In this document: positions 8,460 through 64,000 of the stretch, one piece after another
How the letters are laid out: each line of letters starts with the position of its first letter
How positions within the stretch are numbered: position 1 is the first letter of the stretch
DNA from: Diadema setosum
Lineage: Eukaryota > Echinodermata > Echinoidea > Diadematoida > Diadematidae
Length of the DNA: 64,000 nt
Direction of reading: 5' to 3'
Assembly (NCBI RefSeq): GCF_964275005.1
Contig: NC_092688.1
Coordinates: 25,763,934 to 25,827,933, forward strand
Notes under the pieces: generated by a model
What the model saw: only the letters and a program-made list of their open reading frames with translations
Databases searched by the model: none
Told to the model about the DNA's origin: nothing
Translations under genes and position numbers: made by a program

Positions 8460-9275
8460 TCATATTGCGAGTTCTGGTTCACGAGGAATACTCTCATACA
8501 CTGTTGAATCGAGGTCATCTTCTCTTCTTGGGGAAATGTCGCTTTCGTATAAATCTATTTTTGTGGACGGAAAGTTGTTTTGGCTCTCACAGCGATCATT
8601 GATGTTTTCATCAGTATGTGCTTCTAAAACGAGATAGCCATGTTCATCCACCTCATGCTCAACTTGTGACGTGCTAGGATAGATAGAAGCTGCATATAAA
8701 GGATCGTTCTGGGTCATCGCATAAGGGTCAAATTCGTCATTTCCTTAGACATTCAAGTAGGTAGGACAGTTCTCCGTTTCTAAAGTGGGTGCAGCTTGGT
8801 CGGAAACTGAAGGAATTTCATGGTAGATTGGAAACTGGTAGTTCCTATATTGACCAGTGTCACCTACAGCTTTGGATGTGGTGGATGATGCTATGTTGAT
8901 GTCTTTACCACAGCGTGAGCCACTGGCAATGTCACTGGCCTCTATGGCATCTCGACTTGCTTCAGGCTGAAATCTAGTAGCTCTGTGCAGACTGACATTG
9001 GAAAGGAGGTAGCCGTCTTCATCAACATCTTCATCTTTATCAAAGTGTCTTGATTGAAGAAATATGACCTTCTTCTTCCCTTTCTTCTCTGAGCCTGACA
9101 TGTCCATGTATAGTGCTTTCCTGCTATTAGCTCCCATATGTATACACTCAAAAAAGTGTTCACTCTCCGGGTGTATGACGTCATAAGAAGGACGTGATCT
9201 AGTCTCTGCTGAATTTGCAATACCTCTCCCGATGCTCATTCTAGTTTCAAGAGACAGGTCTGGTGACATGTGACC
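8460..9275 (-). pseudogene. Copy A tail exon, with premature TAA
   Basis: The acceptor (TAG before GGTCACATG) and phase 0 start match copies B and C. The frame reads through SYDVI, ALYMDM and DEDGYLLS motifs, then meets TAA at 8745-8747 where copy C has GAA. About 94 further codons remain open in the same frame to the normal stop at 8460. The truncation would remove DEHGYLVL, the two YES motifs and the LYAASIY segment. Confidence 0.85.
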
Positions 9276-10251
9276 CTATTTCATGAAAGACACAATGAGT
9301 CTCCATGAGGCACATCTATCATACTATTGTATCATATCCTGAAAAGGTATTTTCTGCTTAAAACTAAAATATTACTCATGAAACTTGCAGGATTGCCACA
9401 TCATCAAAGCAAGTTGGAATAAAACTATAGAAAAACGAGACTGAAGAATAGGACCTATTCTAGTGCACTTCTTGGGTCAGCTTATGTCGACGATTGTGTG
9501 TGAACCATGTCAGCATTTAAAACTAAACAGCTAAAAAGCAAGATGTACACTACTTATTGTATTGTCATATAACTTAGAATTTTGGGCACAGCGTAGTAAT
9601 ATACTGTTCCTGATTATGTCAGAGGCACTGCTGTTCATATTTTTTTTTTTAATAATCATGATAGTACGCATACACATTTCGAGGTGGAAAATCGAGATAA
9701 CAAATTTGTAGCAGAAGTGACTAAATTGGTCTCCGAAAACTGCTAAAAAGCACCACTGCTTTCAGGCAATGATTCTAAGCGCAAAAACGTATTTAAAGAA
9801 GATGTACCACTGTAAGAAAATACTATCTATAAAATCAAAAAGTCGACCAGAAATGCATTGTACGATTATGCATGTTTATTTGGCAAAAATAAATCTATGC
9901 AAATTTTTGTGGATTTTCTGGTAGCCGTTGAGAATAAATTCCTTCTTTTTTTTTTTCCAGATTACTCAATATTTTCTCATGCAAGTTCAGCTGCAGGGAG
10001 CATTTATATTCATTTACGTAAGTTAGATGGACCACGAATTGGATTTATTATATTCAAAACTCACTACACGCTGTGAATTTTTAAAGAAAATGAAAAAAAA
10101 AAGTTGAGGAGATTTTTCTGCTACATTTTCCGTCCCAAGCCTGCTCAACCCCCCCCCCCCCACAGAAACACACATACGTACAGTGAAATTCTCACTTCTA
10201 AACTGAAAATTGAAACCCGTGACCCATAAGACGTAATTTGTCTGTCATTAC

Positions 10252-10405
10252 CTCTGCACGGTTCTCATACGCGTTCTCTGGATGAGCTGTGGCGCCTCCG
10301 TGATCTCCTGTGCCTTCAATATGAGTCGAAGTGTTTGGCGGATTCAGTTGCGACTGCACTTCATTGGAATGGACTTTCGACTTTTGACTTGAAGCTTGTC
10401 GACGC
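10252..10405 (-). pseudogene. Copy A juxtamembrane cytoplasmic exon
   Basis: 154 nt, entering in phase 2 and leaving in phase 0. It is flanked by TATAG acceptor and GTAATGA donor. It encodes RRQASSQKSKVHS at its start and an NAYENR motif near its end. Open by itself; it belongs to the disabled copy. Confidence 0.75.
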
Positions 10406-12595: not shown

Positions 12596-12713
12596 CTTTT
12601 CTGTTGATGCCTACACCAAGCGTTGGACAGTATGCCAACCACAGCAAAAACAACGAGAAAGGTTCCCAGGATGTACATAATAATACCATAATTGTTCTCG
12701 TAACTCTTAGGAT
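12596..12713 (-). pseudogene. Copy A transmembrane exon
   Basis: 118 nt, phase 1 to 2. It encodes a short extracellular piece (DPKSYENNYGII) and a hydrophobic helix (YILGTFLVVFAVVGIL) followed by WCRHQQKR as a basic stop-transfer. CTTCCAG acceptor and GTGAAT donor are intact. Confidence 0.8.
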
Positions 12714-13580: not shown

Positions 13581-13649
13581 CTGACTGAGACGGAGACGTT
13601 TCAGTTGTCTCTCGCAATGACGTACTGTCTTGAGTAGTCTGCGTCTGCC
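13581..13649 (-). pseudogene. Copy A stalk exon 2 (Ser/Thr-rich)
   Basis: 69 nt, phase 1-1, reading GQTQTTQDSTSLRETTETS. Its Thr/Ser content suggests an O-glycosylated stalk. GCACAG acceptor and GTGAGT donor are intact. Confidence 0.7.
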
Positions 13650-14095
13650 CTGTGCATTGAGATAAACCCACCACAATTATTGATGGTATACATGCTGATG
13701 ATATAATGTCCTAAACACCTATCCCCAAGATGGAAAATACGATCATAATAGATCTATTTATCTATTCTAGATATCAGACTTGTGTACGTGGTGATAAAAG
13801 TATGAAAAGTTGTAGTGTATGAATGCTCATAATGAAGATGTTGACATTGCACAGGCCGCTGATCCTCCCCCCCCCCAAAAAAAAAAAGGAAAAATGTCTG
13901 GCTCTTCTGAAACAAAAGTAAGAGAAGAGGAATCAGAAATCCTGTTACCAAAAGAGTAAAAAAAAAGAAAAAAAAACATAATTCAAAAATTCCGCCATGA
14001 GATGTTTCCCCTCAAAGGGAAATATACATACACAGAACATTTACCCTTGACCCTCTTTGGAGTAGTCATCACCCTATCAAAAAGACTCACTCACT

Positions 14096-15310: not shown

Positions 15311-15376
15311 ACTTAGAAGTGTTTTCTATACTTTGTGTAGGCATTGTGCTGTTATTGCCATCTTGCCACTCTGCGT
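15311..15376 (-). pseudogene. Copy A stalk exon 1
   Basis: 66 nt, phase 1-1, reading DAEWQDGNNSTMPTQSIENT. It carries an NNST sequon for N-glycosylation. The donor is GTATGT where copy C has GTAAGT. Confidence 0.65.
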
Positions 15377-17184: not shown

Positions 17185-17454
17185 TGTTAAATGAATAATG
17201 TCGGTTGGAGTCAAACTCTGTCGCAAGTGCACATGTCCAATTGTGAGAAAAGTTTCCGTCAGAAATGATCTGCGCATACGTTTCAGACTGAAAACAATTG
17301 CACATTCCTTTTTGCATGACAGCAACGCCATTGCTTACGGTCTGTCTTCTACAGGTAGACATGCACTCGCCGTCCGAATCAACGTCAAGTACAACTTGGG
17401 ATGTTGCTTAAAGGTTTAGTTGGTTGCCTTTGTAGCATCCGAGAAATCCAGGCT
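17185..17454 (-). pseudogene. Copy A WSC-like exon with in-frame TAA
   Basis: 270 nt, phase 1-1. It begins EPGFLGCYKGNQ, typical of a WSC domain, and keeps the later NFSHNWTC. TAA at 17408-17410 replaces CAA of copies B and C early in the domain. Confidence 0.8.
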
Positions 17455-18349: not shown

Positions 18350-18574
18350 CTTCACCACACAAGAGGACTAGAGTCTTGTCTCGTGTTGCTGCAGGCCCAT
18401 TGGCCAAAATAGACTGGCTTGTATACTCCCTTGCAGCCGGGAAACCGAGCTCTCTGCAGACCAATTCAGCAGCTTTGGGGGTAAATCTATCTCAGCAGAC
18501 GTATTTGTCTGATTCGATAACCACCAGGCCTTCAAGGGGAGAGAGTCCATCAACCAGCTTCACCGATGGCATCC
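18350..18574 (-). pseudogene. Copy A SRCR part 1, in-frame TGA and 12-nt net deletion
   Basis: 225 nt against 237 in copy B, phase 1-1. It begins GMPSVKLVDGLSPLEG, has the SRCR hallmark LVCRELGFPAA and ends LLCGEG. After YVC, copy B reads YDEFNAGEF, whereas copy A has lost several codons and carries TGA at 18492-18494. Confidence 0.8.
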
Positions 18575-19897: not shown

Positions 19898-20210
19898 CCT
19901 CGTAACACTTCACTGACATGTTGAATTTCACAGGGTAGATATATATACCATAACCGTAGCTTCGTCTGATGAGTGAGCGATAAAAAGGGAGAATACTCTG
20001 AGTCTTTCAATATCAGATTCCGAGATTTCTTGTTCCCTATTTCATCAAGTCTTTCGAATCCCACCACTCCGTTGTTGATTAGATAGACGGTATAGAGGAT
20101 TCTCCTTCCACTGGGTGCCTGCAGAACCCAGCTGTCACGGTTGTCAACGCAGGTTTGGTCACACCGTATCTCCCATTCAAGTGGAATCCCCGAACAATTT
20201 AGACTGTAAT
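19898..20210 (-). pseudogene. Copy A CUB-like exon with apparent +1 shift
   Basis: 313 nt between good splice sites (ATCACACAG acceptor, GTAAGTG donor). The 5' part reads NCSGIPLEWEIRCDQTC and DSWVLQAPSGRRILYTV, which resembles a CUB domain. The next exon needs phase 1, so the end must be read in another frame (SYGYGIYIYPVKF, then KCYE). A run of five A on the plus strand (19982-19986) is where one base too many would explain this. Copy B has exactly the same feature. Confidence 0.65.
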
Positions 20211-20629: not shown

Positions 20630-20723
20630 ATGTATTAGTTCCAAGTGCTGAGGACTTCATAAAAGGATTGCTAAACAAGAAATGAGCAGAAATCCATACG
20701 AGGAATATCATTCTTTCCTCCAT
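20630..20723 (-). pseudogene. Copy A first coding exon, signal peptide
   Basis: It starts with ATG and encodes MEERMIFLVWISAHFLFSNP, a short acidic/basic head then a hydrophobic core, continuing to SSALGTNT. It leaves in phase 1 at GTGGGT, which matches the phase-1 start of the CUB-like and SRCR exons. Confidence 0.6.
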
Positions 20724-31314: not shown

Positions 31315-31690
31315 GGAATGAAAGAACCTTCGGACTTACAAATCTTATTTCATTTTCAGATTTAACAACCCTTCGGCGTAACAAACTGTAATTAATTTTC
31401 GGAATGTCAAACCTTCGGAATAATGAACCTTATTTGATTTTCGGATTAGAGAACGTTCGGACTATTGAATCGTTTTCGTTTTCTGATCGACAAACCTTTG
31501 GACTCACGAACTTTATTTACGAATCTCATTACATGTTAGGATCAAGGAACCTTCAAAATACCGAATTTGATGTCCTTTTTAAGACCAACAAGCCTTCTGA
31601 ATCACTCCACAAATGTTCGGATTAAGGAACCCCATTTTATTTTCAGAACACAAACATCTGGGTATGGGGATTTTGTGTTTTTCGGACCAA
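31315..31690. repeat. Degenerate ~42-bp tandem repeat downstream of copy B
   Basis: Same array as 8010-8340 and 56225-56600, with AACCTTCGGAATAATGAACC and related words. It contains AATAAA on the minus strand at 31512-31517, a candidate polyadenylation signal 270-280 nt past the copy B stop. Confidence 0.55.
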
Positions 31691-31789: not shown

Positions 31790-32530
31790 TTAGAGTTCTG
31801 GTTCACGAGGAATACTCTCATATACTGTTGAATTGAAGTCATCTTCTCTTCTTGGGGAAATGTCGCTTTCGTACAAATCTATTTTTGAGGACGGAAAGTT
31901 GTTTTGGCTCTCACAGCGACCATTGATGTTTTCATCAGTATGTGCTTCTAAAACGAGATAGCCATGTTCATCCACTTCATGCTCCACTCTTGGCGTGCTA
32001 GGATAGATAGAAGCCGCATATAAAGGATCGTTCTGGGTCATCGCATAAGGGCCTAATTCGTCATTTCTTTCGACATTCCAGTAGGTAGGACAATTCTCCG
32101 GTTCTAAAGTGGGTACAGTTTGGCTGGAAGCTGATGGAATTTCATGGTAAATTGGAAATTGCAAGCATGAGCTACTGGCAATGTCACTGGCCTCTATGGC
32201 ATCTCGACTTGCTTCAGGTTGAAATCTAGTAACTCTGTGCAGACTGACATTGGAAAGGAGGTAGCCGTCTTCATCAACGTCTTCTTCCTCTTTATTAAAA
32301 TGCCTTGATTGAAGAAATACGACTTTCTTCTTCCCCTTCTTTTCTGAACCTGACATGTCCATGTACAGTGCTCTCGTGTTATCAGCTCCCGTATTTATAC
32401 ACTCAAAAAAGAGTTCACTCTCCTGGTGTATGACGTCATAAGAAGGACGTGATCTAGTTTCAGCTGAACTTTCAACACCTCTCCTGATGCTCATTCTAGG
32501 TTCAAGAGACAGGTCCGGTGATATGTGACC
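31790..32530 (-). CDS. Copy B tail exon (246 residues)
   Basis: It opens in phase 0 after TAG with GHISPDLSLEPRMSIRRG. Tyrosine motifs in order: SYDVI, ALYMDM, DEDGYLLS, PIYHEI, PTYWNV, LYAASIY, DEHGYLVL, LYESDI and VYESI. A basic patch (KKGKKK) follows YMDM and an acidic run (KEEEDVDED) precedes DEDGY. Compared with copy C it lacks 24 residues after SDIAS, removed cleanly in frame, and stops two codons earlier (TAA at 31790-31792). Confidence 0.85.
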   Translation of the reverse strand, partial: GHISPDLSLEPRMSIRRGVESSAETRSRPSYDVIHQESELFFECINTGADNTRALYMDMSGSEKKGKKKVVFLQSRHFNKEEEDVDEDGYLLSNVSLHRVTRFQPEASRDAIEASDIASSSCLQFPIYHEIPSASSQTVPTLEPENCPTYWNVERNDELGPYAMTQNDPLYAASIYPSTPRVEHEVDEHGYLVLEAHTDENINGRCESQNNFPSSKIDLYESDISPRREDDFNSTVYESIPREPEL

Positions 32531-35500
32531 CTATCAGAGAAAAGTCACACACAAAACCACCATGAAGTACATCTATCATCCTTTCCTGAAAATTATTTTT
32601 GCTTTAAAGTGAAATATTACTCATGAAGCTTTCATTGTCTAACATCATCAAAACAAGTTGGAATAGAACTTTAGAAAAAAACAGAGACTCTGAAGAACAG
32701 GACTTATTCTAGTGCACTGACATAAGTCAACTTGTGTCGATGATTGTGTGTGTGTCAGCGTTTAGAAATATAAGCCAACTACATTTTTTTTTTTTTTTTG
32801 GGGGGGGGTATTGTCAGATAAACGTAGAACGGGGGGGGGGGGGACTCAGCTGCAATATTCTATTTCTGATTATGTCGAAGGCACTGCTGTCCGTAAAGTT
32901 TCTTAATAGTCACGATAGTATGCTTACACACTTTGAGGTGGAAAATTGAGATAAAGAACAAAAGTGGCTTGATGTACGATACCGCTTAAAACCACTACAG
33001 ATTTCAGGAAATGATTTCAAGCGCAGACCCATAATAGCAATGTATTATTGTAAGCGATTTCACATGCCTATTGGAAAAAAAGCTAAAGCCATGTGAATCT
33101 TTGGGGATTTTTTTTTAGTCCAAGTTAAGATTTATTTTTTTCTTTTTTTCTTTTCTTTTTTTGCCAGATATTACTCGATACTTTCTCATGTAAGTTCAGC
33201 TGCAGGGAGCATTTTATATTCATTTACGTATGTTAGATGGACCACGAATTGGATTTATTCCAATCAATTGCACTACACGCTATATACATTACAAAAGAAA
33301 ATGAATAAAAAAAAATTGAGGGAATTTTCCTGTCATATCTTCTTTCTCAAGCCTCCTCACCCCCGCACCCCATAGAAACACGCATACTTACAGCAAAATT
33401 CTCCTTTCTTAGATAAAACCTGTAACCTAAAAGACGTAATTTGTGTGTCATTACCGCTGCACGGTTCCCATACGTGTTCTGTGGATGAGCCGAGGCGCCT
33501 CCGTGATCTCTTGTGCCTGGAATATGAGTCGAAGTGTTTGGCGGATCCAGCTGCGACAGCTCTTCACTGGAGTGGACTTTCGACTTTTGACTTGAAGCTT
33601 GTCGACGCCTATACGTATAACATAAAATGAATAAAGAAAAAAATAATACTCTTTGAATGCATCCTGTCCAGCTGGAGAGAACGTTACTGTAAATTACAGC
33701 ACAAATTGTTATATTGTCCAAAAAAAAATGATTAATATTTTTCTATCCATTTTCTCATTCCTTTTCATAATCAAAGTGTGATATAAAATTCCTGTCCCTC
33801 TAACAAAATCTAGCACAGTGAATAACAAACAGAATATACCAAAAGGATTGTTTTCTTTTCTTTCATTGTATCTAAAGTAGCACAAATTAGTCTAACTTTT
33901 GACAGCAAAGTTTTAAGATTTTTTTTTTCTACTGCGATTTCTATTTTTTTTTTCTACTGCGATTTCTATTTTTTTAAGAATGTCTAGTGTAGAAGGAAAA
34001 ATTGCCGTTTTTTTTATGTTTTGAAACAGTGGCAGAATGCTGACTTAATACTAGAACTTCAACTGGGAGAAATATTCATCCCCTGCTAAAAGCCTGCATT
34101 TACCCACGGCAGTTGTCTGTCCACTCACACTTGCTTAACAGCCTCCAAACTTTCACGTCATTTTGTTTTTCCTTGTTTTTTGTGTGTCGTCCGTATTTTT
34201 CTTTAGTTTTTTTTTTTTTACTGTGTATACATAGACGGCTCCTTGTCGTTGTTTTGATGGTGGTTTGTGTACAATAACTTAAGTAGAATATTGTATCAAT
34301 GAACATTTTGGGCGACAATGAAATACACAATAAACACAATAAAATGTCTGGCGACCAGAAACTCAAACATCTCCACCCCCCCCCCCCAATATGTAAGAGA
34401 AATATAAATCAAACAAAGCAAATTTACTTCAACATTCATGTGCATTCAGTATACACTCACTTCTGAATATGTTTTGATTGTTCAATGAGTCGCATACAAT
34501 GACTTCACACCCTAGATTTACAAACTAATTTTGACAAAAAATCACCTTTTCTGTTGACGTCTACACCAAGCAATGGACAGTATGCCAACCACAGCAAAAA
34601 CAACGAGAAGGGTTCCCAGGATGTACGTAATTATATTATAATTGTTCCCGATACTCTCAGGATCTGGAAGATAAAGCATTAAGTTAAAATATAATTCATT
34701 ATATTAAACATATTTAAGATATGAATATATAATATATATTTCTATTCCCTATGTCACATTTTATTTCGATACAATTACAAAAATGATGCTATTGTAATGT
34801 ATAATAAAACAGTTATATTGCAATGAATTATAGATATTATATGTAAACATACATAATATGAAAATATTTTATTACATCAGACTCTGATATATAGACAGAG
34901 CGTTTAGACTTTCCAAAATTATAGAAGGATAACTAGGGAAGAAAATATGGTCAATAATATAGGTTCTCCCGGCCAATTTTGCACTTTTGTCAGTCCAATT
35001 TTTAATTGCTAATTATTCAATTTAGCAAAATTTAGCATAGATGACATGTTTGGCATTTCGTTTTCATGATCTCTTCATTCAAATTCATTTAGGAGTATCC
35101 AAATTACCTTTAGCCTCATTCTAATTAACATTTTTTTCAATTGAAATTCGTAAAACAAACACAATCTCGTTATTCGTTCATTCAATTTAGAATGACATAG
35201 TCACGTGATCACGTACATGCCCCACTCGTCACTCGAATTCATATTCATATTCAGAATTAAACTCTTCTTCACTATGAGAAAGTAACAATTTCAAAACTTG
35301 AATCCAGCATATTTACTCATGATGAATTTACTATGAACGATGAAGAGCAACATCTAGTGTGTTTCCGTCTAAACCAGGTGGTGAAACATTGTTTAGGCAA
35401 TAGCAGCCAAGTAGTCCTAATGTAATCATTGCGTATATGCAATTAATGGGTTGAGAGGTAAAAGTGGACACACTAGAAGCAAAAATATGTTTTACTGCGG

Positions 35501-36718
35501 GTCGAATCATTTTGATACTAAACTCACTTGACTGCGATGTTTCAGTTGTCGCTCGCAATGACGTACTGGCTTGGGTAGTCTGCGTCTGCCCTGTGCATTC
35601 AGATAGACCGACTGCAATTATTGATGGTATACATGCTTTAATATGATATAATGTCTGGAAAATACGTTCATGATAAATCTTTTTATCTGTTCTATTCTAG
35701 ATATCAGATTTTTGTACGTGGTGATAAAAGTATGAAAATTTGTAACGCATGAATGCTCATAATGGAGATGTTGACTTTGCGCAGGCCGCCGATCCCCCAC
35801 CCCCCCCCCAAAAAAAAAAAAGTGGTCTCCCGAAACAAAAACAAAAAATCAGGGGAAGAGGAATCAGAAATCCTGAACCCACTAAAAAAAAAAAAAAAAA
35901 AAAAAAAAAACATAATCCAAACAATTCCGCCAGGAGATTCTTCCCTCAAAGGGAAATATACACTAAACAAACATTGACCCTTGATCCTCTTTGGCGCTGT
36001 CATCGCCCTATCAAACACACTCACTCACACACACACGCACACACACACACACACACGCACACGCACACACACACACACATCCACATGGCCCCTGCAGTAT
36101 ATTGAAAACAATCCACTTTCTAGTCATTCTATGTTGCAAAATTAATTGCAATTGTAACAAAGGGGGAAGTGATAGGCTTTGCGGACAGCAGAAATTTAAG
36201 CAGCTAGTCGCCATTATACACTCCATGTCTGCGAACTTCATAACCACCATCTTTTTTGTTGGTGGTGATGTTTATTCCAAGCGCGTAGGGGTCTTTGAGC
36301 TTGCACCTTATGAATACTCCAAATATCAATTACTGTATAACATTGTGATCATTCTATCATAGCACATACGGTTTTGTTCAAAGTATGTTACACTGTATAA
36401 TTGCCAAATGTACTACATACCTATAGACACGATAGAAGTGCTTTCTGTACTTTGTGTAGGCATTGTACTGACATCTGGCCACTCTGTGTCTGTGAACAAA
36501 CATTCCCATCCACAAAAGCAATGACAAACTCATGTAAAGATCTTGTGTGATAGCAGACAAAAGATTTATCATAAAGCATACTGAGGGGTACATGTGGTGT
36601 CGTAATCTTACGATATTAAATGGTAAAAATATCAATCTCTTTGGTCGTTGTTGTATGTAGGTTTTCCCAGCCTATTTCGCACTTCGTCAGTCCATTTGAT
36701 AGAAGGTTCGTTCAATTT

Positions 36719-39700: not shown

Positions 39701-42700
39701 AACGAAAATTAACATGTTTTCATTTGACATTTTGCAATTCTTACCTTGGCAATGGAGTCTAACAATCCTGTTTGAAGAACACACGGTAGTTGGCATTAAG
39801 CAGTCCATTAAACGCAGCGAATCTGTGCATGATATTGTACAAATCGTTCATGAAATGGATAAAGTTTAATGCCGCATTTTCCCATAAAAGTTTGATGCAT
39901 AGATAACGGCTCTCGTGTTTAATGAATATAAATGTAAAGAGAAAATAACTATGGTAACAAAACATAAAGAGAATATCAGTAATGAATGCGTTTTTATATT
40001 ATAAGAGTTTCTGTGTAGAGAAAACGAATCTTATTCTAATGAATATTTTAGTGCGTCATCTATATCACTAAGCTCTGTAATGTAACGATGTCATTGGCAA
40101 GTATTATTGCTCATCGTTGTGTAAGTGTACAGCAAGAAAACTGGCAGTATAGTTGAAAAACAGAAGAGAAAGAATAACATTAGGAATTTTGGAATGCCGT
40201 GATATTAAAAGTGTTGCACGTTAAAAACACGAACCATGGAAATGGTAAAAGGCCTACCTCATTAACTTTATTTTTCTAATATATATTTCCATCGTTGAAT
40301 ATATTGCAAAGTTACCTTTGGACGCAAAATGTGCTTTCAGGCGATCAAGATTATTTGATGCGATACATGCTATTCTACCTGGGATGATAAATACATATGC
40401 ATACACAAGTTCTGATCGGCATGCATATTATTCTGCAGTTACCTTTACGACACGACAGCACTTGAGTCTTGTTTAGTGTTACTGTAGCGATTGCGGCCAA
40501 ATTCTGAAAAGTATACCCCTTTGCCGCTGGGAAGCCGAGCTCTTCGCAGACCAATTCAGTAGCTTTGGTGGTAAATTCACCAGCATTGAATTCATCATAG
40601 CACACGTATTTATCTGACTCAGTAACCAATAGACCTTCAAGGGGAGAGGGTCCGTCAGCCAGCTTCACCGATGATATCCCTTGAAAATAAACGACCAACG
40701 TTCGAAATTTTGGGGGGGTTAACAGATAATCTATAAGCAATCATTCACACCTTAGCTCATTCAAAGTGAAGACGATTATTAGAATTATGGTCTAAATCCT
40801 CCTTCGAGTTATACATTGTGGTTTCCCTTTCACAGTTCCTCAATTAAAGGAACGGAAGAAGCAATGCGATTTATAACTTGTTTTTGTTGGCTTCTTTTAT
40901 GTAGATCGCACTCTGCTTTAATTCTCTTCCCCAAACTGGGGAACAGTATGAAGAAAACTGAATAAACTGAGTCATCAATAGAATTCATGAATGCAATTCA
41001 TACGTGACGTAAGGATCAATAATAACACCTATTATTCTAGATAATGTCGAGAAATCAATCTATCAACTAATAGTCAGTACGTGATGGCTTTCTGTTCATC
41101 CGGTATTGGAATAAACATATACATCAAATTGAGTACAATATACAGTACAATAATACATTATGACAGATACGGATATGGAATGATGGCTATTATGTGAATT
41201 GATTTTCACAACACTCATGGACAACGACATTAATGTCGTTGAATCTAAAGATTGCAAAGGTTAGGAATTGTTGGTGTGCTGGCATCTTAGACTCATCATC
41301 CTCTTCCTTATCGCCACTATCATAATCATCATCAACATCATCGTCACCATCATAATCATCATCACCATCATCTTCATCAATATTTTCATCATCATCATAA
41401 TCACCATCATCATTATCATCACTATCATCGTCGTCATCATTATGAATTATACCACAGAGGTGAGAGGAATATTATATGTATATCATATGTTTCTATACAG
41501 TCATTATTTACGGGCCGGTTATGTCCATTTTGATTTTCCCCCTTTGTATTGTTAAATAAATAGGTATATTTATAGGATTTATATTTTTGCATATGCATTT
41601 ATCATTATGTATGTTTTCCCGTTTTTTCTATAATATTGGATGTGAAATAATTATGATTATGTTGGGTGGATTTAATGCAATTTATCGGTAGTGAATTTCG
41701 GTAGATTCATATAATTGAACGAATGATTAGAGCTACTTTTTTGTGTGAGTGTTCTCAGGTTAAATGTATGCTGATATAAGTTCATTTTAGCGGTTTTTGG
41801 TTTTTTTTTTTCTTTTCGTCCTGAAACAGCTGTTCATGTATCATGTTTGTGTGTGAATGTACTTGTATACATGTATATATTTGTGTAACTGTCAATTGTG
41901 GAGTGATGGACCGGGTCCACTGTATTTCTTTCCTTGTACTTACCTGCCTGTGGGCAGGTAGTATCCTAGGAATATTTATCACATGCTTTAATTTGCAAAG
42001 GAAATTAAGTATGTTATATATATACTCTTTCCTGTTTTGCATTTTGGGTTTTATTTCTTTTAAGATAATGGCCAGGATATCTACCAAGGAAGTATTAAAA
42101 AAAAATAAAATAAAATTTCAGATTTGCCGAACACCCCGCATTGAAATTGCCATCATGTATCTTCCAGGACAAATCAATGTCGCAAATTTCATTTCGTACA
42201 TTTCATATTAGTGAGGGACAAACCAGTAATTTGGTGTTTAAAAGGGCATTTTACCGGTTTTTTTATTTTTTTTATATGTTGTTCTTTTAATTCTAAAAGA
42301 CCCAGCGGTGCAAACAGAATCAAAATTTCATAACGATTAAGTCTGTAATTTAATGTTAAAAATTGAACTTTTTAGGTGAGAATTATGCTAATGAGCTGAC
42401 GAGCCCGGATGTTATGATGTCACAGGTGCTCTCACTATCACTGATTACAAGTGCTCGCATACGCGTGCGTTAATTCGTATCGAGTAGCAGACGACGCTTA
42501 GGCCTAATTTAGCTAGCAGGCGGCGCTTGTGTACTGTTCTATCCATGTAGATATCTCAAATTTCACTAAACCAAATCGCACCAAAATTACAGGATATACT
42601 TCATAGCATATTTCAAAGTATTCTCTTATATTTGAACGAAATCAGTAATCTAGAAGTATCAATATTGACGTCGACTTTCAAGTCGTCATTACGAAAAAAA

Positions 42701-45700: not shown

Positions 45701-45891
45701 TCCATTCTCGTGTAAACACGGACATGCTATAAAAACTGAGAAAGAGAGAAATGTGCGAGATCTGTCAATGATTGAAAGAAAATTGAAAGGTACCTACATG
45801 TATTAGTTCCCAATGCTGAGGACTTCAAACAAGGATTGAAAAACATGAAATGAGCACAAATCCACACAAGGAATATCATTCTTTCCTCCAT
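31790..45891 (-). CDS. Receptor copy B: SRCR-WSC-sushi transmembrane receptor with Tyr-rich tail
   Basis: Predicted type I cell-surface receptor, eleven exons: signal peptide, CUB-like, SRCR (two exons), WSC-like, sushi, two stalk exons, transmembrane, juxtamembrane and tail. Splice sites are canonical and phases agree at every junction except across the CUB-like exon, which is one base too long. Without that exon the product is about 675 residues. The family resemblance (SRCR, WSC, sushi) suggests recognition of glycans or microbial surfaces, and the tail suggests tyrosine-kinase signalling; both are inferences, and the ligand is unknown. Introns hold copy-specific insertions, notably 3-4 kb between the CUB-like and SRCR exons. 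It may be functional if the CUB-like exon is skipped or the extra base is a sequencing error. Confidence 0.75.
33455..33608 (-). CDS. Copy B juxtamembrane cytoplasmic exon
   Basis: 154 nt, phase 2 to 0. It reads RRQASSQKSKVHSSEELSQL and SAHPQNTYGNRAA. The YENR motif of copies A and C is YGNR here; both keep a YxN pattern. Confidence 0.8.
34546..34663 (-). CDS. Copy B transmembrane exon
   Basis: 118 nt, phase 1 to 2. YILGTLLVVFAVVGILSIAW forms one hydrophobic helix followed by CRRQQKR. It is the most conserved module across the three copies. Confidence 0.85.
34959..35250. mobile_element. Solo end of a Tc1/mariner-like element
   Basis: It begins TATAGGTTCTCCCGGCCAAT and matches, inverted, the right end of the element at 36657-37800 through CACGTGATCACG. 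It replaces about 280 bp of the intron found in copies A and C. Confidence 0.5.
35528..35590 (-). CDS. Copy B stalk exon 2
   Basis: 63 nt, phase 1-1, reading GQTQTTQASTSLRATTETSQ. It is two codons shorter than in A and C. Thr/Ser-rich, likely O-glycosylated. Confidence 0.7.
36027..36080. repeat. (AC)n microsatellite, copy B
   Basis: At the same intron position as in copies A and C, interrupted by GC variants. Confidence 0.8.
36421..36489 (-). CDS. Copy B stalk exon 1
   Basis: 69 nt, phase 1-1, reading DTEWPDVSTMPTQSTESTS then IVSI. GTTCACAG acceptor and GTATGT donor. Confidence 0.7.
   Translation of the reverse strand, partial: TQSGQMSVQCLHKVQKALLSCL
36657..37800 (+). mobile_element. Degenerate ~1.1-kb Tc1/mariner-like element with transposase N-terminus
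   Basis: Inverted ends TAGGTTTTCCCAGCC and (complement of right end) TAGGTTTTACCGGCC sit at TA. Copies A and C carry the uninterrupted site (TATTTTCAAATTAAG). At 37153-37287 a 44-codon frame reads YRHISQEDRERIIETC and DYLELADTFGIKHL, a helix-turn-helix of the kind found in Tc1/mariner-like transposases. Stops follow, so the element is dead. Confidence 0.55.
38361..38570 (-). CDS. Copy B sushi/CCP exon
   Basis: 210 nt, phase 1-1, 70 residues. It starts VSVGFCDHPGIVPNGSWDSD and has the four-cysteine sushi pattern (CDHP, LICDKDY, LQC, PSC) with the conserved Trp (VWN) before the last cysteine. NGS sequons are present. Donor GTAATG. Confidence 0.85.
39025..39294 (-). CDS. Copy B WSC-like exon
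   Basis: 270 nt, phase 1-1, 90 residues. EPGFLGCYKDNQ opens the domain; ECMSTC, LCICF and NFSHNWTC supply the cysteines. It has six cysteines rather than the usual eight of WSC domains, and the final CGG segment is missing. WSC domains are thought to bind carbohydrate. Confidence 0.8.
39745..39822 (-). CDS. Copy B SRCR part 2
   Basis: 78 nt, phase 1-1. It reads DSLRLMDCLMPTTVCSSNRI then VRLHCQ, completing the cysteine set of the SRCR domain begun in the previous exon. Too short to stand out as an open frame. Confidence 0.75.
40443..40679 (-). CDS. Copy B SRCR part 1
   Basis: 237 nt, phase 1-1. It opens GISSVKLADGPSPLEGLLV and carries KYVCYDEF and the SRCR hallmark LVCEELGFPAA, ending VLSCRK. 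With part 2 it makes an SRCR domain of about 105 residues with six cysteines. The domain is split by a phase-1 intron. Confidence 0.8.
41290..41450. repeat. (ATC)n-type imperfect microsatellite
   Basis: CATCATCACCATCAT-like trinucleotides over about 160 bp, in the copy B intron between the SRCR and CUB-like exons. The open frame across it is an artefact. Confidence 0.8.
42240..44300. mobile_element. ~2-kb foldback element with CpG-rich core
   Basis: TAAGTCTGTAATTTAATG and TGTCACAGGTGCTCT at the left recur inverted at the right (44093-44200), and TCTATCCATGTAGATATCTC (42540) is inverted at about 43165. The core (42680-43870) is rich in CG and holds an 87-codon minus-strand frame without recognisable features. 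The matching intron of copy A is only 1.3 kb and lacks it. Confidence 0.45.
45077..45389 (-). CDS. Copy B CUB-like exon, apparently frameshifted
   Basis: 313 nt with good splice sites. Read from the phase-1 start it gives NCSEIPLEQEITCDRSC and DSWVLQAPRGRRILYTL, resembling a CUB domain. The phase-1 exit demanded by the SRCR exon is met only by another frame (SLMRRSYGYGIYIYPVKF, then VECYE). Differences from copy A are partly synonymous only in that second frame. One surplus base in the run 45161-45165 would reconcile them. Skipping the exon keeps the frame. Confidence 0.55.
45798..45891 (-). CDS. Copy B first coding exon, signal peptide
   Basis: ATG-initiated, 31 codons plus one base. MEERMIFLVWICAHFMFFNP has a hydrophobic core suited to a signal peptide; SSALG may precede the cleavage site. 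Donor GTAGGT gives phase 1. The start was chosen because it is conserved in copy A and opens right before the hydrophobic stretch. Confidence 0.6.
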
Positions 45892-53717: not shown

Positions 53718-53751
<34 letters not shown>

Positions 53752-55288: not shown

Positions 55289-55331
<43 letters not shown>

Positions 55332-56220: not shown

Positions 56221-56224
56221 TTTC

Positions 56225-56600
56225 GGAATGAAAGAACCTTCGGACTTACAAATCTTATTTCATTTTCAGATTAACAACCCTTCGGCGTAACAAACTGTAA
56301 TTAATTTTCGCAACATCAAACCTTCGGAATAATGAACCTTATTTGATTTTCGGATTAGAGAACGTTCGGACTATTGAATCGTTTTCGTTTTCTGATCGAC
56401 AAACCTTTGGACTTACGAACTTTATTTACGAATCTTATTACATGTTAGAATTAACGAACCTTCAAAATACCGAATTTGATATAATTTTTTAGACCAACAA
56501 GTCTTCTGAATCACTCCACAAATGTTCGGATTTAGGAACCCCATTTCATTTTCAGAATACAAACATCCGGGTATAGGGAGTTTGTGTGTTTCGGAATAAC
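56225..56600. repeat. Degenerate ~42-bp tandem repeat downstream of copy C
   Basis: Third instance of the TTCGGA-rich array. It contains AATAAA on the minus strand at 56421-56426, about 262 nt past the stop, a candidate polyadenylation signal. Confidence 0.55.
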
Positions 56601-56687: not shown

Positions 56688-57506
56688 TCATATTTCGAGT
56701 TCTGGTTCACGAGGAATACTCTCATACACTGTTGAATCGAAGTCATCTTCTCTTCTTGGGGAAATGTCGCTTTCGTATAAATCTATTTTTGTGGACGGAA
56801 AGTTGTTTTGGCTCTCACAGCGATCATTGATGTTTTCATCAGTATGTGCTTCTAAAACGAGATAGCCATGTTCATCCACCTCATGCTCCACTCTTGGCGT
56901 GCTAGGATAGATAGAAGCTGCATATAAAGGATCGTTCTGGGTCATCGCATAAGGGGCAAATTCGTCATTTCCTTCGACATTAAAGTAGGTAGGACAATTC
57001 TCCGTTTCTAAAGTGGGTGCAGCTTGGTCGGAAACTGAAGGAATGTCATGGTAGATTGGAAACTGGAAGTTCCTAGATTGACCAGTGTCACCTACAGCTT
57101 TGGATGTGGTGGATGATGCTATGTTGATGTCTTTACCACAGCGTGAGTCACTGGCAATGTCACTGGCCTCTATGGCATCTCGACTTGCTTCAGGCTGAAA
57201 TCTAGTAGCTCTGTGCAGACTGACATTGGAAAGGAGGTAGTCGTCTTCATCAACATCTTCTTCATCTTTATCAAAGTGTCTTGATTGAAGAAATATGACC
57301 TTCTTCTTCCCTTTCTTCTCTGAGCCTGACATGTCCATGTATAGTGCTTTCGTGTTATCAGCTGCCGTATTTATACACTCAAAAAAGTGTTCACTCTCCG
57401 GGTGTATGACGTCATAAGAAGGAAGTGATCTAGTCTCTGCTGAACTCGCAATACCTCTCCCGATGCTCACTCTAGTTTCAAGAGACAGGTCTGGTGACAT
57501 GTGACC
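56688..57506 (-). CDS. Copy C tail exon (272 residues)
   Basis: It starts in phase 0 with GHMSPDLSLETRVSIGRG and ends PREPELEI. Tyrosine motifs in order: SYDVI, ALYMDM (57330-57341), DEDDYLLS, PIYHDI, PTYFNV, PYAMT, LYAASIY, DEHGYLVL (56853-56876), LYESDI and VYESI. YMDM fits the PI3K-p85 SH2 consensus YxxM, YFNV fits the Grb2 consensus YxN, and DEHGYLVL is close to the hemITAM DEDGYxxL. Copies A and B have DEDGY where C has DEDDY. No kinase or death-fold domain is present, so signalling would need recruited partners. Confidence 0.85.
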   Translation of the reverse strand, partial: GHMSPDLSLETRVSIGRGIASSAETRSLPSYDVIHPESEHFFECINTAADNTKALYMDMSGSEKKGKKKVIFLQSRHFDKDEEDVDEDDYLLSNVSLHRATRFQPEASRDAIEASDIASDSRCGKDINIASSTTSKAVGDTGQSRNFQFPIYHDIPSVSDQAAPTLETENCPTYFNVEGNDEFAPYAMTQNDPLYAASIYPSTPRVEHEVDEHGYLVLEAHTDENINDRCESQNNFPSTKIDLYESDISPRREDDFDSTVYESIPREPELEI

Positions 57507-59048
57507 CTATATCATGAAAGACACAATAAGTCTCGATGAGGCACATCTATCACATTGTATCATATCCTGAAAAGGTATTTTCTGCCTTAAAATGAAATAT
57601 TACTCATGAAACTTGCATGTTGCCACATCATCAAAACAAGTTGGAATAGAACCATAGAGAAACGAGACTCTGAAGAATAGGACCTATTCTAGTGCACTGC
57701 TTGGGTCAACTTACGTCGACGATTGTGTGTGAACCATGTCAGCATTTAAAACTAAACAGCTAAAAAGCAACTACACTATTTATTGTATTGTCATATAACT
57801 TAGAATTTGGGGCACTGCGTAGCAATATACTGTTCCTGATTATGTCAAAGGCACTGCTGTTCATATTTTTTTAATAGTAATGATAGATTACATACACATT
57901 TCGAGGTAGAAAATTGAAATAACAAACTTGTAGCAGAAGTGGCTTTGTCTGCGAAAACTGCTAAAAAGCACTACTGCTTTCAGGCAATGACTCTAAGCTA
58001 AACACAAAAACTTATTTAAAGAAGATGTGCAACTGGAAGAAAATTCTATGAAATCAACAAGTCGACCAGAAATGCATTGTACGATTACACATGTTTATTT
58101 GGCAAAACTAAGTCTATGCAAATATTTGTGGATTTTCTGGTCCACGTTGAGAATAAATTCCTTCTTTTTTCCAGATTACTCAATATTTTCTCATGCAAGT
58201 TTAGTTGCAGAAAGCATTTATATTCATTTACGTATGTTAGGTGGACCACGAATTGGATGTATCATATTCAAAACTCACTACATGCTATAAGTTACCAAAG
58301 AAAATGAAAAACAAAAGTGAGGGGATTTTCCTGCTACATTTTTCTTTCTCAAGCCAGCCCACCCTCGCCCCCCCCCCCCCCATAAGAAAAACACTTACGG
58401 ACAGTGAAATTCTCAGTTCTAAAATCGAAACCTGTGACCCTTACGACGTAATTTTTGTGTCATTACCGCTGAACGATTCTCATACGCGTTCTCTGGATGA
58501 GCTGAGGCGCCTCCGTGATCTCCTCTGCCTGGATGAGTCGAAGTGTTCGGCGGATCCAGCTGTGACCGCTCTTCACTGGAGTGGACTTTCGAATGACTAG
58601 AAGCCTGTCGACGCCTATACGTATCAAACATAAAACCAATAAAGAAACAAAACAATACTCTTAGAATGCATCCTGTTAAACTGGAATGAACGTTACTGTA
58701 AATTACAGCACAAATAGGTATATCAATAAAAACAATGATTGATATTTTTTTATATTTTCTCATTGCTTTTCATAAGCAAAGTGTGATACAAAATTCCTGT
58801 CCCTCTAACATAATCTAGAAAAGTGAATTACAAATAAAATACCCCCAAGATTTGTAATTTCTTACATCTAAAGTAGCACAAAATTATTCTGACTTTTGAC
58901 AGCAAAGTTTTGAGATGAGTAAAATTTCGCTGCACTTTTTTATTTCTGATGAATCTTACATTATAAGCATAATGTCACCAAAAATCAGCAGAACTCAATG
59001 GGTAAAACAAGCAATTCTAACACGGGTGTTTTCTCTGCTATCTGACAC

Positions 59049-59083
<35 letters not shown>

Positions 59084-60001: not shown

Positions 60002-60032
<31 letters not shown>

Positions 60033-61757
60033 ATTTTTTTCTTTCTTTTCATTTTGCACAATATGCCATTTAACGACTGTAATTTGTGTAATCTTGTTTT
60101 GCGCCCCAACAACAAGCACTAGATGTTTCAAAGGGGTCCCGACATTAATTCCCTTAAAATGTGCATGTATGTATATACGCATATACGCATATATCCGCTT
60201 TTGTTTTTATTGTGTACATAATGAGCTTTTGATTTATTTTGTGCCGAATAAAATTGCATTGAATTGAAAATATTTTTGACAAAAATTCACCTTTTCTGTT
60301 GACGCCTGCACCAAGCGATGGACAGTATACCAACCACAGCAAAAACAACGAGAAGGGTTCCCAGGATGTACGTAATAATTTTATAATTATTCTCGTAACT
60401 CTCAACATCTGGAAGATAAAGCATTATTAAACTTCAAATCCAATGTATAACATTTAACATATTTAAGATATATTATGATTTCATATATTTCCAGTGTAAC
60501 ATTTTATTTTGATACATTTACAAAAATATGATGTAATTATAATGTTTGCTAATATCAAACATCTATATTGCATTGAACAATGAATATATGTTAACATACA
60601 TAGATATAATATGAAAATATTCTGGATGGTAAAGTAGTAAAGTTCATTACATCGAACTCTGATATATAGGCAGAGCGTTTAGACTTTCCAAAACTATAAA
60701 AGAATAACGGGGGATCAAAATATGGTGAATAACTGCTTACTTTACTTCACAGTATTACTTTGCCCTTTTGCACCATGATATCAATGCACTTTCATTACAC
60801 TTTTAATCCATTTTCCCTCATTGACCAATTTTCCAGGAAAAAGCCTTTTCATTAGATCAACTGATATTTGCATAATGATTGTTACATCACCACAAAAATC
60901 TGATAATCGATGAATAAGAGTTTTCTTTCCAGTTCCTGTTGAAGAACGGCGCATTGCAACATTTCTTCATGGACATCTTTGTTATTCATGTATGATATAA
61001 GAATTAAACTCTTCTTCACTATTAGACAGTAACAATTTCAAAACTTGAATCCAGTATATTGATTCATGATGAATAATTCACTATGAACAAACGGTGAAGA
61101 ACCACATCTCGTGTTTTTCCGTCTAAACTAGGTGGTGAAACAATAATGTTTAGGCAATAGTAGCGAAGTAGTCCTCGTGTAATTATTGCGTATATGCAAT
61201 CAATGGGTTTGATTCTAGTTGAAACACTAGAAACAAAAACACATTTTTACTATACGGGTAGAATCAATATAAACTCACCTGTCTGAGACCGAGACGTTTC
61301 AGTTGTCTCTCGCAATGATGTAATGGCTTGGTTAGTCTGCGTCTGCCCTGTGCATTAAGATAAACCCACCGCAATCATTGATGGTATACATGGTGATGAT
61401 AATACTGCCTAAACACCTATTCCCCAGATGGAAAATACGTTCATAATAGATGTATTTATTTGCCAGATACCGGACTTTTGTACATGGTGAAAAAAGTATG
61501 AAAATTTGGAGCGCATAAACACTCATAATGGAGATGTTGACATTGCACAGACATTACACACCCTCACTCCCCCCCCTCCCAAAAAAAAAAAAAAAAAAAA
61601 AAATGAGCAGAAGAGGAATCAGAAATCCTGATAGCATTTTTTTAATCCAAAATTCCGCCAGGAGATTCTTCCCCTCAAAGGGAAATATGCACTACACAGA
61701 ACATTGACCCTTGACCCTCTTTGGCGTAATCATCACCATATCAAAGACACTCACACA

Positions 61758-61798
<41 letters not shown>

Positions 61799-63853
61799 AC
61801 ATACAACGTCACATGGCACCTGCACTTATTGAATTCATGCCATTGCATTTTCATTGTATGTCGCGAATTAATTGTAATAGTAAAAAGAAAATGAAGTTAT
61901 AGGCTTTGGAGACAACAGAAATTCAAGCTACATTGTCATTTGACAGCATCGATGTCTGCGGACTTCAAAATTATCATCTTTTTTGTTGGTAGAGATGTTT
62001 ATTTAAAGCGCATAGGGGCCTTTGAGCTGGCACATTATGGATATAGCAAATATCAATTACTGCTAACATTGCTATCATTTTATCATTGCAATGCAGATTT
62101 GTTCATATGTTACACTGTATTTGCCAACTGTAGTACTTACCCTTAGAAGTGCTTTCTATACTTTGTGTAGGCATTGTGCTGATATTACCATCTTGCCACT
62201 CTGCGTCTGTGAACAAACATTCCCATCCATATTTAATGACAAACTCATGAAAAGATCTTCTGTGATAGCAGAGCAAAGATAGTCATTCAGTGACTTCATG
62301 GAATTCATATATTTTCTTATCATAAAGCGTACTCAGCGGTGCCTATGGTGTCGTAATCTTACGATATCAAATGGTAAAAATGTCCATCTGTTTGGTATAT
62401 TTATTATTTTCAAATTAAGATGAATGAAATATGCAGTGAGCATTTAAGAGCACGTATCAATACATGAAGAATATATACCGAGTATAAAATAGATTGATAT
62501 TTCCCAATGAATTACTCTACGGGAAACAATACGATTGTTTATAATTCCGAGAAATGGGAAATTTTATTGGTAGACCTAAGCATTGTCTCATGTCAATGCA
62601 TTTGAATGACTTATTTCAATTTTTCTCCTGTTATATCATGCCTATCAAATATGGCAGTATTAATTTCCACTGGTGCGGTGTATGTCATGTGGAGTGTTCT
62701 AGGTGAAGGCTCAAATGGCACATTTTGTTATCATCCGCACTCAGATGACGATTCCTGTCGGAAAGTAATGCTTACAAAAAGTAATAAATTTGAATATCAT
62801 TTGCAGCTCCTCCCTTTTAGGCATAATGTAAAATAAGGTCTTTTTATATCTCTTACACTATTGCACAAAGCAGAGATTTTAAGATCATAATCACTGATAA
62901 TATATTGTCAAATTGATTTCAGGAGATGCCGTTTGTTTTACTTTCGACTGCTCGGCAAGAAGGGACTGAAGCGTTCCAAACCGGGAAGTAAGTCGACCAT
63001 CCAGGTTGTATCACACACTGCAGTGTCGCACTCCCGTTGACGGCGTAACCTTTGTCACAGATGAGAGTTATCTTGGACCCGAAGTTCGTGATATCCGAGT
63101 CCCAACTTCCATTGGGCACAATCCCAGGATGATCACAAAATCCAACAGAGACTTTCAATAAAGGAGAAATGTGTAGGGAATTCCAGTGAGATATGGGGGA
63201 AAACTTGAAATAATCATTTCATTACGATATATTACATGGAATAATCATTATGAAGAAAGATAATTATTACATGTAAACAGATTCACTTTTGTATCTCTTC
63301 TGGTAAGGTTCAGATACACGTTAATCTGCCAAATCAATTGACTAGCTGACTAGCACAGAACGTAAACATAATTATAAACATTGATTGTATAGAATAAATA
63401 ACAGTAAACATATATTATGAAATTCCTTTTTCTTACTGAAGTATGAACCTGACAAATCTTATCGTGAGAATTACAGGTATTAACAGTCACTGACAAACAA
63501 TACTGTCGTCATTATCATCACTGATGCTTGCAACAGTTATTTCACTCTCTGATGTCAGGTAACCATTGCTTCTGAATACTTACGGCTAAATGAACGATGT
63601 CGGTTGTATTCAAACTGTGTTGCAAGTGGACATGTCCAATTGTGAGAAAAGTTTCCGCCAGAAATGATCTGCGCATACGTTTCGGACTGAAAACAAATGC
63701 ATAACCCTTCATGCATGACAGCAACGCCATTGCTTTCGAGTTCTCCTCTGCAGGTGGACATGCACTCGCCGTCGGAATCAACGCCAAATCCGATGTTAAA
63801 TACTGTTTGAAAGTTTAGTTGGTTGTCTTTGTAGCATCCAAGAAATCCAGGTT
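56688..63853 (-). CDS. Receptor copy C (5' part beyond the window)
   Basis: Seven exons are visible: WSC-like, sushi, two stalk exons, transmembrane, juxtamembrane and tail, together about 565 residues. All are open, with matching phases and canonical splice sites. The SRCR, CUB-like and signal exons should lie just right of 64000. The tail is the longest and most complete of the three copies. A LINE sits about 20 nt into the intron after the transmembrane exon and might affect splicing. Confidence 0.8.
58467..58614 (-). CDS. Copy C juxtamembrane cytoplasmic exon
   Basis: 148 nt, phase 2 to 0. RRQASSHSKVHSSEERSQL then SAHPENAYENRSA. It is two codons shorter than in A and B. YENR is another YxN motif. 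Confidence 0.8.
59646..60267 (+). mobile_element. LINE 3' fragment inserted next to the copy C transmembrane exon
   Basis: The plus-strand frame 59644-59862 reads TVGTHSIRFTGVNEWNSI, the typical C-terminal reverse-transcriptase end motif of LINEs. The 3' end has AATAAAATTGCATTGAATTG. AAATAT is duplicated at 59640-59645 and 60268-60273. Copies A and B have the uninterrupted site. A (GT)n run lies at 60006-60032. It is antisense to the receptor gene. Confidence 0.7.
60291..60408 (-). CDS. Copy C transmembrane exon
   Basis: 118 nt, phase 1 to 2. DVESYENNYKIITYILGTLL continues into VVFAVVGILSIAWCRRQQKR, one helix plus basic stop-transfer. Confidence 0.85.
61279..61347 (-). CDS. Copy C stalk exon 2
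   Basis: 69 nt, phase 1-1, GQTQTNQAITSLRETTETS. Thr-rich. Canonical GCACAG and GTGAGT sites. Confidence 0.7.
61759..61803. repeat. (AC)n microsatellite, copy C
   Basis: Paralogous to the runs at 14096 and 36027. Confidence 0.8.
62141..62206 (-). CDS. Copy C stalk exon 1
   Basis: 66 nt, phase 1-1, DAEWQDGNISTMPTQSIEST. The NIS sequon suggests N-glycosylation. GTAAGT donor. Confidence 0.7.
62942..63151 (-). CDS. Copy C sushi/CCP exon
   Basis: 210 nt, phase 1-1. VSVGFCDHPGIVPNGSWDSD opens it; CDKGY, LQC and PSC complete the four cysteines. Very close to copy B, differing at scattered residues (NFG for SFG). Confidence 0.85.
63584..63853 (-). CDS. Copy C WSC-like exon
   Basis: 270 nt, phase 1-1. 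EPGFLGCYKDNQLNFQTVF at the start, then ECMSTC, LCICF and NFSHNWTCPLATQF. Acceptor TGCGTAG, donor GTAAGTA. Intact, unlike the copy A counterpart. Confidence 0.85.
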
Positions 63854-64000
63854 CTACGCAGTCACAGAATATTATGATTATTTCAACCTTCCAATACATG
63901 ATACCAGTCGACCTCCCTAATGATACTTTGAAGTGTACATTATGTTCAATACATTTCAACAATCTGACAATAGCTAGCCACAAATTATCCTTGAAATGAC

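Follow-up and report, generated by a model that had tools for sequence, protein, structure and literature searches.

Array organization

The window analyzed here is a 64,000-nucleotide stretch of the genome of the sea urchin Diadema setosum (NCBI RefSeq assembly GCF_964275005.1, contig NC_092688.1, positions 25,763,934 to 25,827,933 of the forward strand), and it carries part of a tandem array of receptor-like genes. A match to bindin, an echinoderm sperm protein, in the same genome (193 bits) fits a sea-urchin source. A self-comparison of the window reveals three minus-strand units, designated A, B, and C, with tail exons at 8460-9275, 31790-32530, and 56688-57506. Spacing from tail to tail is 23.3 kb (A-B) and 24.9 kb (B-C), co-linear blocks share 70-92% DNA identity, and the tail proteins can be aligned end to end (A/C 92%, B/C 79% identity). 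Splice sites and exon phases agree between units, which bears out the three copies at a 23-25-kb period, with common exon order and phases, described in a first-pass annotation of the same DNA. Read on the minus strand, a unit consists of a signal peptide, a cysteine-rich "CUB-like" exon, a truncated SRCR exon, a WSC-like exon, a sushi exon, a stalk, a transmembrane (TM) segment, and a tyrosine-rich tail.

Copy B is the clearest unit, with plausible splice sites at each exon; its junctions are in phase 1 up to the TM exon, then in phase 2, then in phase 0, the exception being a frame break in the second exon (E2). The earlier placement of copy C in the window holds from the WSC-like exon to the tail, its E1 and E2 lying outside, at 70641 and 70133. 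The exons are as follows, in window coordinates.

Copy B
45798..45891, minus strand: E1, start codon and signal peptide, ends in phase 1; the same exon is found in A, C, D, F, G, and H at 83-94% DNA identity
45077..45389, minus strand: E2, cysteine-rich "CUB-like" domain; frame break at the tract TATATATATCTACCC, 45112-45126
40443..40679, minus strand: E3, truncated SRCR, N-terminal half to two thirds, from a PDB profile search
39025..39294, minus strand: E6, WSC-like; Pfam WSC E 0.014, under cut-off
38361..38570, minus strand: E7, sushi; Pfam Sushi 9.9e-9, above cut-off
36421..36489, minus strand: E8, Ser/Thr-rich stalk
35528..35611, minus strand: E9, Ser/Thr-rich stalk; the acceptor common to other copies may fall inside (TGCACAG/GG)
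34546..34663, minus strand: E10, transmembrane segment, ends in phase 2
33455..33608, minus strand: E11, juxtamembrane cytoplasmic exon, ends in phase 0
31790..32530, minus strand: E12, tyrosine-rich tail, 246 aa

Copy A
20630..20723, minus strand: E1
19898..20210, minus strand: E2, frame-shifted type
18350..18574, minus strand: E3, in-frame TGA
17185..17454, minus strand: E6 (WSC-like), in-frame TAA
16122..16331, minus strand: E7 (sushi), in-frame TGA
15311..15376, minus strand: E8 (stalk; donor placed by eye)
13587..13670, minus strand: E9 (stalk; acceptor uncertain)
12596..12713, minus strand: E10 (TM)
10252..10405, minus strand: E11
8460..9275, minus strand: tail exon, in-frame stop at 8745-8747

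Copy C
63584..63853, minus strand: E6 (WSC-like)
62942..63151, minus strand: E7 (sushi), Pfam 3.4e-10
62141..62206, minus strand: E8 (stalk; donor placed by eye)
61285..61368, minus strand: E9 (stalk; acceptor uncertain)
60291..60408, minus strand: E10 (TM)
58467..58614, minus strand: E11
56688..57506, minus strand: tail exon, 272 aa, open; query for the genome-wide tail search

Two further candidate exons of copy B between SRCR and WSC-like, E4 (40316-40378) and E5 (39745-39948), were rejected, as indels between copies do not come in threes. The first exon was initially taken to end in phase 2, a reading since given up.

When flanking DNA is included the array comprises eight units. Copies A, B, and C lie in or at the window and the other five (D to H) to its left, the tail of H having been identified through the genome-wide tail search. 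The tandem cluster of the first-pass annotation is real, and its extent had been drawn too small, with eight units around the window and several clusters genome-wide. The proposal to count further copies by extending to the right led nowhere: past C, in DNA searched out to ~184 kb (window coordinates), the best tblastn match had an E of only 0.47, and further units lie to the left.

Several repeats accompany the units. Between B and C (49175-50403) there are ~300-base direct repeats of ~95% identity at offsets of roughly 370 and 630 bases, and a 42-43-base tandem repeat follows the 3' ends of tails B and C (31310-31445 and 56219-56357). The intron between E2 and E3 of copy B contains ~2 kb (42241-44287) that is missing from the matching blocks of D and G, and is probably a mobile-element insertion.

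A genome-wide family with a fixed exon order

Exons of the first domain, SRCR, WSC-like, and sushi types each match at least 150 places genome-wide. The tail has at least 157 matches, some of which are pieces of one locus; those listed amount to about 105 loci. Family clusters lie on contigs C4, C6, C7, C12, C16, C17, and C24 and on small contigs, although not every exon occurs in each cluster. For an analysis of neighbors we used 150 places for each of three ectodomain exons and 110 tail places, with same-locus tail pieces dropped by eye (105 loci after merging). Among the places listed, 105 of 150 CUB-like exons have an SRCR exon within 6 kb downstream on the same strand, 76 of 150 SRCR exons are likewise followed by a WSC-like exon within 6 kb, and 57 of 150 WSC-like exons by a tail within 15 kb, with zero opposite-strand neighbors in all three comparisons. 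A tail lies within 25 kb of 49 of the 150 listed CUB-like exons, with 2 opposite-strand neighbors.

One stretch read unit by unit, C17:24886024-25546712, contains 26 ectodomain units, and the order first domain, SRCR, WSC-like is held in 26/26. A TM exon is present in 23 of these units; a tail was detected after nine, all with a TM exon, and 14 have a TM exon but no detected tail. That ectodomain exons and tail exons are separate genes alternating by chance might be suspected from the 17 of 26 units that have no tail match before the next unit. Because the order is held in all 26 units, such a split is unlikely, and we regard it as very improbable given the TM exon that stands, with matching phases, between ectodomain and tail and is present in all nine tailed units. 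Phases also chain from E1 to the tail in the C4 and C17 genes, the E2 break excepted, and no inversion of the order occurs anywhere in the C17 array. The joining of ectodomain and tail into one gene, as first annotated, agrees with the same strand, order, and compatible phases seen across the genome-wide family, and is the most likely gene structure on these sequence features.

A good many units would stop after the membrane pass or draw on a different tail, and one tail may serve several units. In the DNA around the window, unit D keeps its TM exon and no tail exon was found for it. Long-tailed members and members with no detected tail stand within one cluster, both in C17 and, with unit D, in the window array, as in paired receptors.

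Other clusters depart from this layout. C24:19.75-20.24 Mb has first-domain, SRCR, and sushi exons and no WSC-like exon or tail among the matches listed, possibly a subfamily with a different architecture, and near 25 Mb of C24 there are WSC-like and tail matches without a first domain or SRCR among those listed. In C12:10728775-10793170, dozens of closely similar full SRCR exons recur at intervals from about 740 bases upward; this is a multi-SRCR expansion of the ordinary kind, apart from this receptor family.

Domain identities of the ectodomain

The sushi exons match Pfam PF00084 above its cut-off (3.4e-10, 9.9e-9, and 2.9e-5). A PDB profile search shows the SRCR exon to be homologous to SRCR proteins (PIT54 1e-13, CD163 4e-10, and CD5L; range 1e-13 to 7e-9), with matches that span profile positions 2-47 and have all ended by position 51. 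Its Pfam matches (9.9e-5 and 1.8e-4; 23.0 and 22.2 bits vs. a cut-off of 26.1) reach at most position 70 of 100. The exon is truncated, being without about the last third, and falls short of a complete SRCR domain of about 100 aa with 6-8 cysteines.

The WSC-like exon gives a weak partial match below the cut-off (E 0.0065-0.08, over positions 1-55 or 1-60 of an 82-position profile). The piece from copy A has no WSC match in Pfam, and the WSC-like profile has none in PDB. A search of the same genome with PF01822 returned 109 places, mostly on C10 and none at the WSC-like exons described here, and it failed as a means of enumerating the family. The C10 matches include separate large clusters of above-cut-off WSC domains at 13.2-13.7 Mb and 32.7-35.5 Mb.

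Searched against PDB, the first-domain profile found nothing convincing, only a potassium-uptake protein at E 0.009. Three cysteines are invariant in the part common to 11 aligned copies, with one more in the last strand of three straight-reading copies. Pfam found no Kringle and no immunoglobulin domain in the scanned exons. Among the domains named by the first-pass annotation, then, sushi stands and SRCR stands in truncated form, while WSC remains under its cut-off and CUB is without Pfam or PDB support.

The tyrosine-rich tail

Complete tails contain 9-15 tyrosines. In an alignment of 10 diverse tails taken from six large contigs, conservation of at least 90% is seen in 6 of 10 tyrosine columns vs. 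26 of the 195 remaining ones (p 0.0012, with no control for relatedness). Recurring but non-universal sites include LYMDM(S/T)G, DGYLLS, (I/V)Y(H/E/D/Q)(E/D)I, and (T/E)YxN(I/V), as well as NDPLYSxSIY, DE(H/N/D)GYLVLEA, LYExEI, and YESIP; the YMDM, YxxI, and GYLVL motifs are kept in tails. YMDM is a motif of the phosphoinositide 3-kinase (PI3K) p85 type and YxN of the Grb2 type, and YxxI/L and TVYESI are associated with SHP or SLAM-adaptor type proteins. The consensus of immunoreceptor tyrosine-based inhibitory and switch motifs (ITIM and ITSM) is [S/I/V/L]xYxx[I/V/L] or TxYxx[V/I]. It is matched in sequence by TVYESI in A, B, C, E, F, and the C17 gene, and SIYHEI is found in E, F, and C17, with PIYH[ED]I instead in A, B, and C.

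At two loci a 68-residue tyrosine module (EYxxI, NDPLYSxSIY, GYLVLE) is repeated in tandem, with six full copies in L033 (C4:4098500-4101800; open frame of 603 residues, 30 tyrosines) and eight in L034 (C4:25077600-25080000; 730 residues, 47 tyrosines). The repeated module reads as a docking platform whose capacity would have been multiplied.

Selection, decay, and exchange among copies

Pooled ratios of nonsynonymous to synonymous substitution (dN/dS) were obtained for E1, E2, E3, and the WSC-like, sushi, TM, E11, and tail exons, the stalk exons being outside this set; pairs B-D, B-G, D-G, and A-H were left out, and other pairs involving A or H, both dead, were kept. In the seven exons tested from E2 onward the ratio ranges from 0.26 to 0.79: E2 upstream of the frame break 0.59, E3 0.51, WSC-like 0.79, sushi 0.26, TM 0.77, E11 0.57, and tail 0.61.

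Some units have decayed. Copy A carries in-frame stops in its SRCR, WSC-like, sushi, and tail exons and is a pseudogene, and these four exons bear out, for this copy, the earlier description of the cluster as decaying. Copy H has one in-frame stop, in the WSC-like exon, and a stalk exon of copy F shows a one-base difference that, read by eye, seemingly shifts the frame.

Exons also show signs of homogenization or exchange. Unit G's tail, at -104419 to -103679 in window coordinates, shares 99.9% DNA identity with that of copy B, 136 kb away, and their E11 exons 100%, although their TM and second stalk exons diverge by 3-10%, a sign of recent gene conversion. Similarly, copy E differs from B, C, and F by 0.43-0.88 synonymous substitutions per site over E2, E3, E6, and E7 and by 0.85-1.05 over E11, but by only 0.22-0.30 in the tail, which indicates that tail exons have been homogenized or exchanged.

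A recurrent break in the reading frame of E2

The most surprising part of the family is the break in E2. In copies A, B, C, D, E, G, and H this exon is in frame up to a tryptophan (or a substitute), after which the last strand (PVKFNMNVKCYEG and variants) is encoded in the +1 frame, the only one that joins E3 in the correct phase. Copy F has four bases fewer at the break and reads straight. Simple local decay was our first reading, dropped since the break recurs beyond the array: among the 35 first-domain exons read, the +1 break is found in 27 and a +2 break in one (L067), and seven are straight. The +1-broken exons come from clusters on C4, C6, C7, C17, and C24, and recurrence in so many diverged loci makes an assembly error unlikely.

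The 35 exons comprise the eight array units, one C17 gene, six picked for diversity before the motif discussed below was known (four shifted, two straight), and 20 others picked for being without the exact motif (15 shifted, four straight, one with the +2 break), a choice biased against the motif. Frame classes were assigned, and spacer lengths counted, by eye. L067 was left out of the constraint and TATATAT tests, leaving 34 rows. Five of the array units (A, B, D, G, and H) resemble one another closely, and a set of 22 non-redundant shifted copies was tested too.

Coding constraint is present on both sides of the break, as the upstream dN/dS of 0.59 is followed, in the 36 bases past the break in the 27 shifted copies, by a ratio of nonsynonymous to synonymous differences (pN/pS) of 0.37 in the frame of the downstream exon, vs. 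3.1 and 1.6 in the other two frames. The value is 0.35 in the 22 non-redundant shifted copies, where variation by codon position is 11, 14, and 25 (p 0.01), and 0.49 over the same stretch of the straight copies. None of the 27 shifted copies has a stop past the break in the downstream-exon frame; the upstream frame reaches a stop within 39 bases in eight copies and, in two more (L057 and L063), just before that. Spacers are 10, 16, or 19 nt in shifted copies and 6, 15, or 18 nt in straight ones, the remainder modulo three being constant within each class.

One explanation is that most arrays are relics, the break killing the gene so that only straight copies work. The prevalence of the break (27/35), the four further stops of copy A, the one in H, and the undetected tail of D are what this would predict. 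The constraint past the break, the absence of stops in 27/27 copies, and spacers that differ by threes are unexpected of dead exons, however, and the other exons of copy B and of the C17 gene are open; we consider wholesale decay improbable.

The sequence at the break recurs as well. The motif TATATATRYCTACCC has 81 sites genome-wide vs. 18 for a reversed control; 59 coincide with listed CUB-like exons and four others sit 1.5-2.8 kb upstream of SRCR exons on the list, placing 63 of the 81 in the family. Chance was rejected as the source of this abundance, as only 18 sites, equal to the control count, fall outside it. TATATAT occurs in 24 of 27 shifted copies vs. none of seven straight ones (relatedness ignored). 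The three shifted copies without it (L053, L058, and L066) speak against a classical frameshift signal.

Splicing could solve the frame, if E2 were skipped or if a nearer donor after CCCN were used, leaving no first domain or a shortened one. With E1 ending in phase 1 and E3 starting in it, skipping E2 stays in frame. In every shifted copy but L053 (26 of 27), CCCN or TCCN is followed by a GT that lies in phase 1 of the upstream frame. Neither route explains the coding constraint of the last 36 nt in the +1 frame; in L057 and L063 a stop precedes the nearer donor, and a GT at that place is also expected from a conserved Val codon in the +1 frame. Splicing is a possible solution that we hold only tentatively. 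As for a hidden phase-repairing exon between E2 and E3, nothing both conserved and coding was found in the aligned introns of A, C (in part), D, E, F, and G.

Alternatively, the first domain may be made by recoding, with the upstream part and the last strand both translated in their different frames (+1, or -2). The break usually falls in UAUAUAU followed by CUACCC-N, where tRNAs would re-pair two bases back, or tRNA-Pro would slip forward on CCCN. No downstream RNA structure was found in six shifted copies (z -0.75 to +1.37; straight copy F, -2.15), which also counts against a classical frameshift signal. Recoding accommodates constraint on both sides of the break, but we think it doubtful. 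If ribosomes do shift, surface expression of the whole receptor family would depend on a translational switch, failure of which would yield a short secreted form. The conserved break would be either large-scale translational recoding or a splice switch.

Interpretation and comparison with known systems

Our preferred reading, to which we assign a probability of roughly 60%, is that the window samples one array within a very large family of type I sea-urchin receptors, one gene per unit, with tails predicted to signal through tyrosines and with innate recognition as the likeliest use. The anatomy of the units makes a receptor-like, tyrosine-signaling function probable. A ligand would bind the ectodomain and cause the receptors to cluster, upon which a Src-type kinase would phosphorylate the tail and its tyrosines would dock SH2 proteins; tailed and tailless units would work together like vertebrate paired receptors.

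The same receptors might instead serve gamete recognition, development, or cell adhesion, as rapidly duplicating families with constrained tails are also known in gamete recognition. At least 150 exon matches in several clusters, a mix of tailed and tailless units, and dead copies would be more usual for pattern-recognition families, and a non-immune role seems to us rather unlikely.

A number of observations weigh against the preferred reading. All splice sites are inferred from sequence, and the frame is not continuous in most first-domain exons, so that a full-length product needs something extra. "CUB-like" is a label of the earlier reader only, and both the CUB and the WSC labels failed their tests: three straight-reading copies of the first domain matched 0 Pfam families, copies A and B matched none of CUB type, and three WSC-like exons score 13.6-17.1 bits against PF01822, vs. 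a cut-off of 27.8. The 57 WSC-like exons with a nearby tail are far from all, and some tails may have been lost or gone unrecognized. E1, a short exon, shows little constraint (pooled dN/dS 0.93). Over-conserved tyrosines do not demonstrate phosphorylation, and YxN is absent from tails L036, L038, and L039. That microbe recognition is the likeliest use is an argument from analogy with families that are arranged in tandem and turn over fast.

Sea urchins are the standard example of an innate repertoire that has expanded enormously (TLR, NLR, and SRCR). To our knowledge, their TLR, NLR, and SRCR receptors are not known for tyrosine-based tails. No paper naming the family described here was found in the open-licence literature, the only literature covered, in which absence is weak evidence; the family is apparently undescribed. 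The first-pass annotation could match the combination to no named receptor, and this stands as far as names go, the mixture of domains being partly in print: in its main text, a 2024 survey counts 38 sushi, 36 WSC, and 35 CUB domains in purple-urchin SRCR genes (PMC10855680). That SRCR superfamily likewise forms tandem clusters and has SRCR genes with sushi, WSC, and CUB domains, but the SRCR here is truncated and under the Pfam cut-off, and it is the fixed domain order and the tyrosine tail that define the family; the word "tyrosine" has 0 occurrences in the survey's main text (PMC10855680).

Other likenesses are partial. The truncated-SRCR profile matches chains of CD163, CD5L, and PIT54, but here one truncated SRCR stands amid unrelated domains. 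Kremen is a Kringle-WSC-CUB protein without such a tyrosine tail. It shares a WSC-like domain, and maybe also a CUB-like one, in a single-pass protein, whereas the exons described here have no Kringle or CUB match and a WSC under the cut-off. The docking proteins Gab, IRS, and FRS2 carry YxxM, YxN, and YxxL sites along an apparently unstructured chain, as the tails do, but here the docking chain belongs to a receptor family with about 105 tail loci among the matches listed. Vertebrate paired receptors (KIR, LILR, PIR, and SIRP) are also tandem, with long-tailed and tailless members and ITIM/ITSM-like motifs (cf. SIYHEI and TVYESI); unlike them, the family has no immunoglobulin domain in the exons scanned, and it has 9-15 tyrosines per tail and 68-aa modules at some loci.

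The E2 frame break, the units without a detected tail, and the amplified tyrosine module elsewhere in the genome go beyond what was first annotated. The family has ITIM/ITSM-like, PI3K-, and Grb2-type sites, and its tailed units stand next to tailless ones. If its function is immune, it would parallel the paired immune receptors in an invertebrate and on a different ectodomain, and the origin of such systems would become testable.

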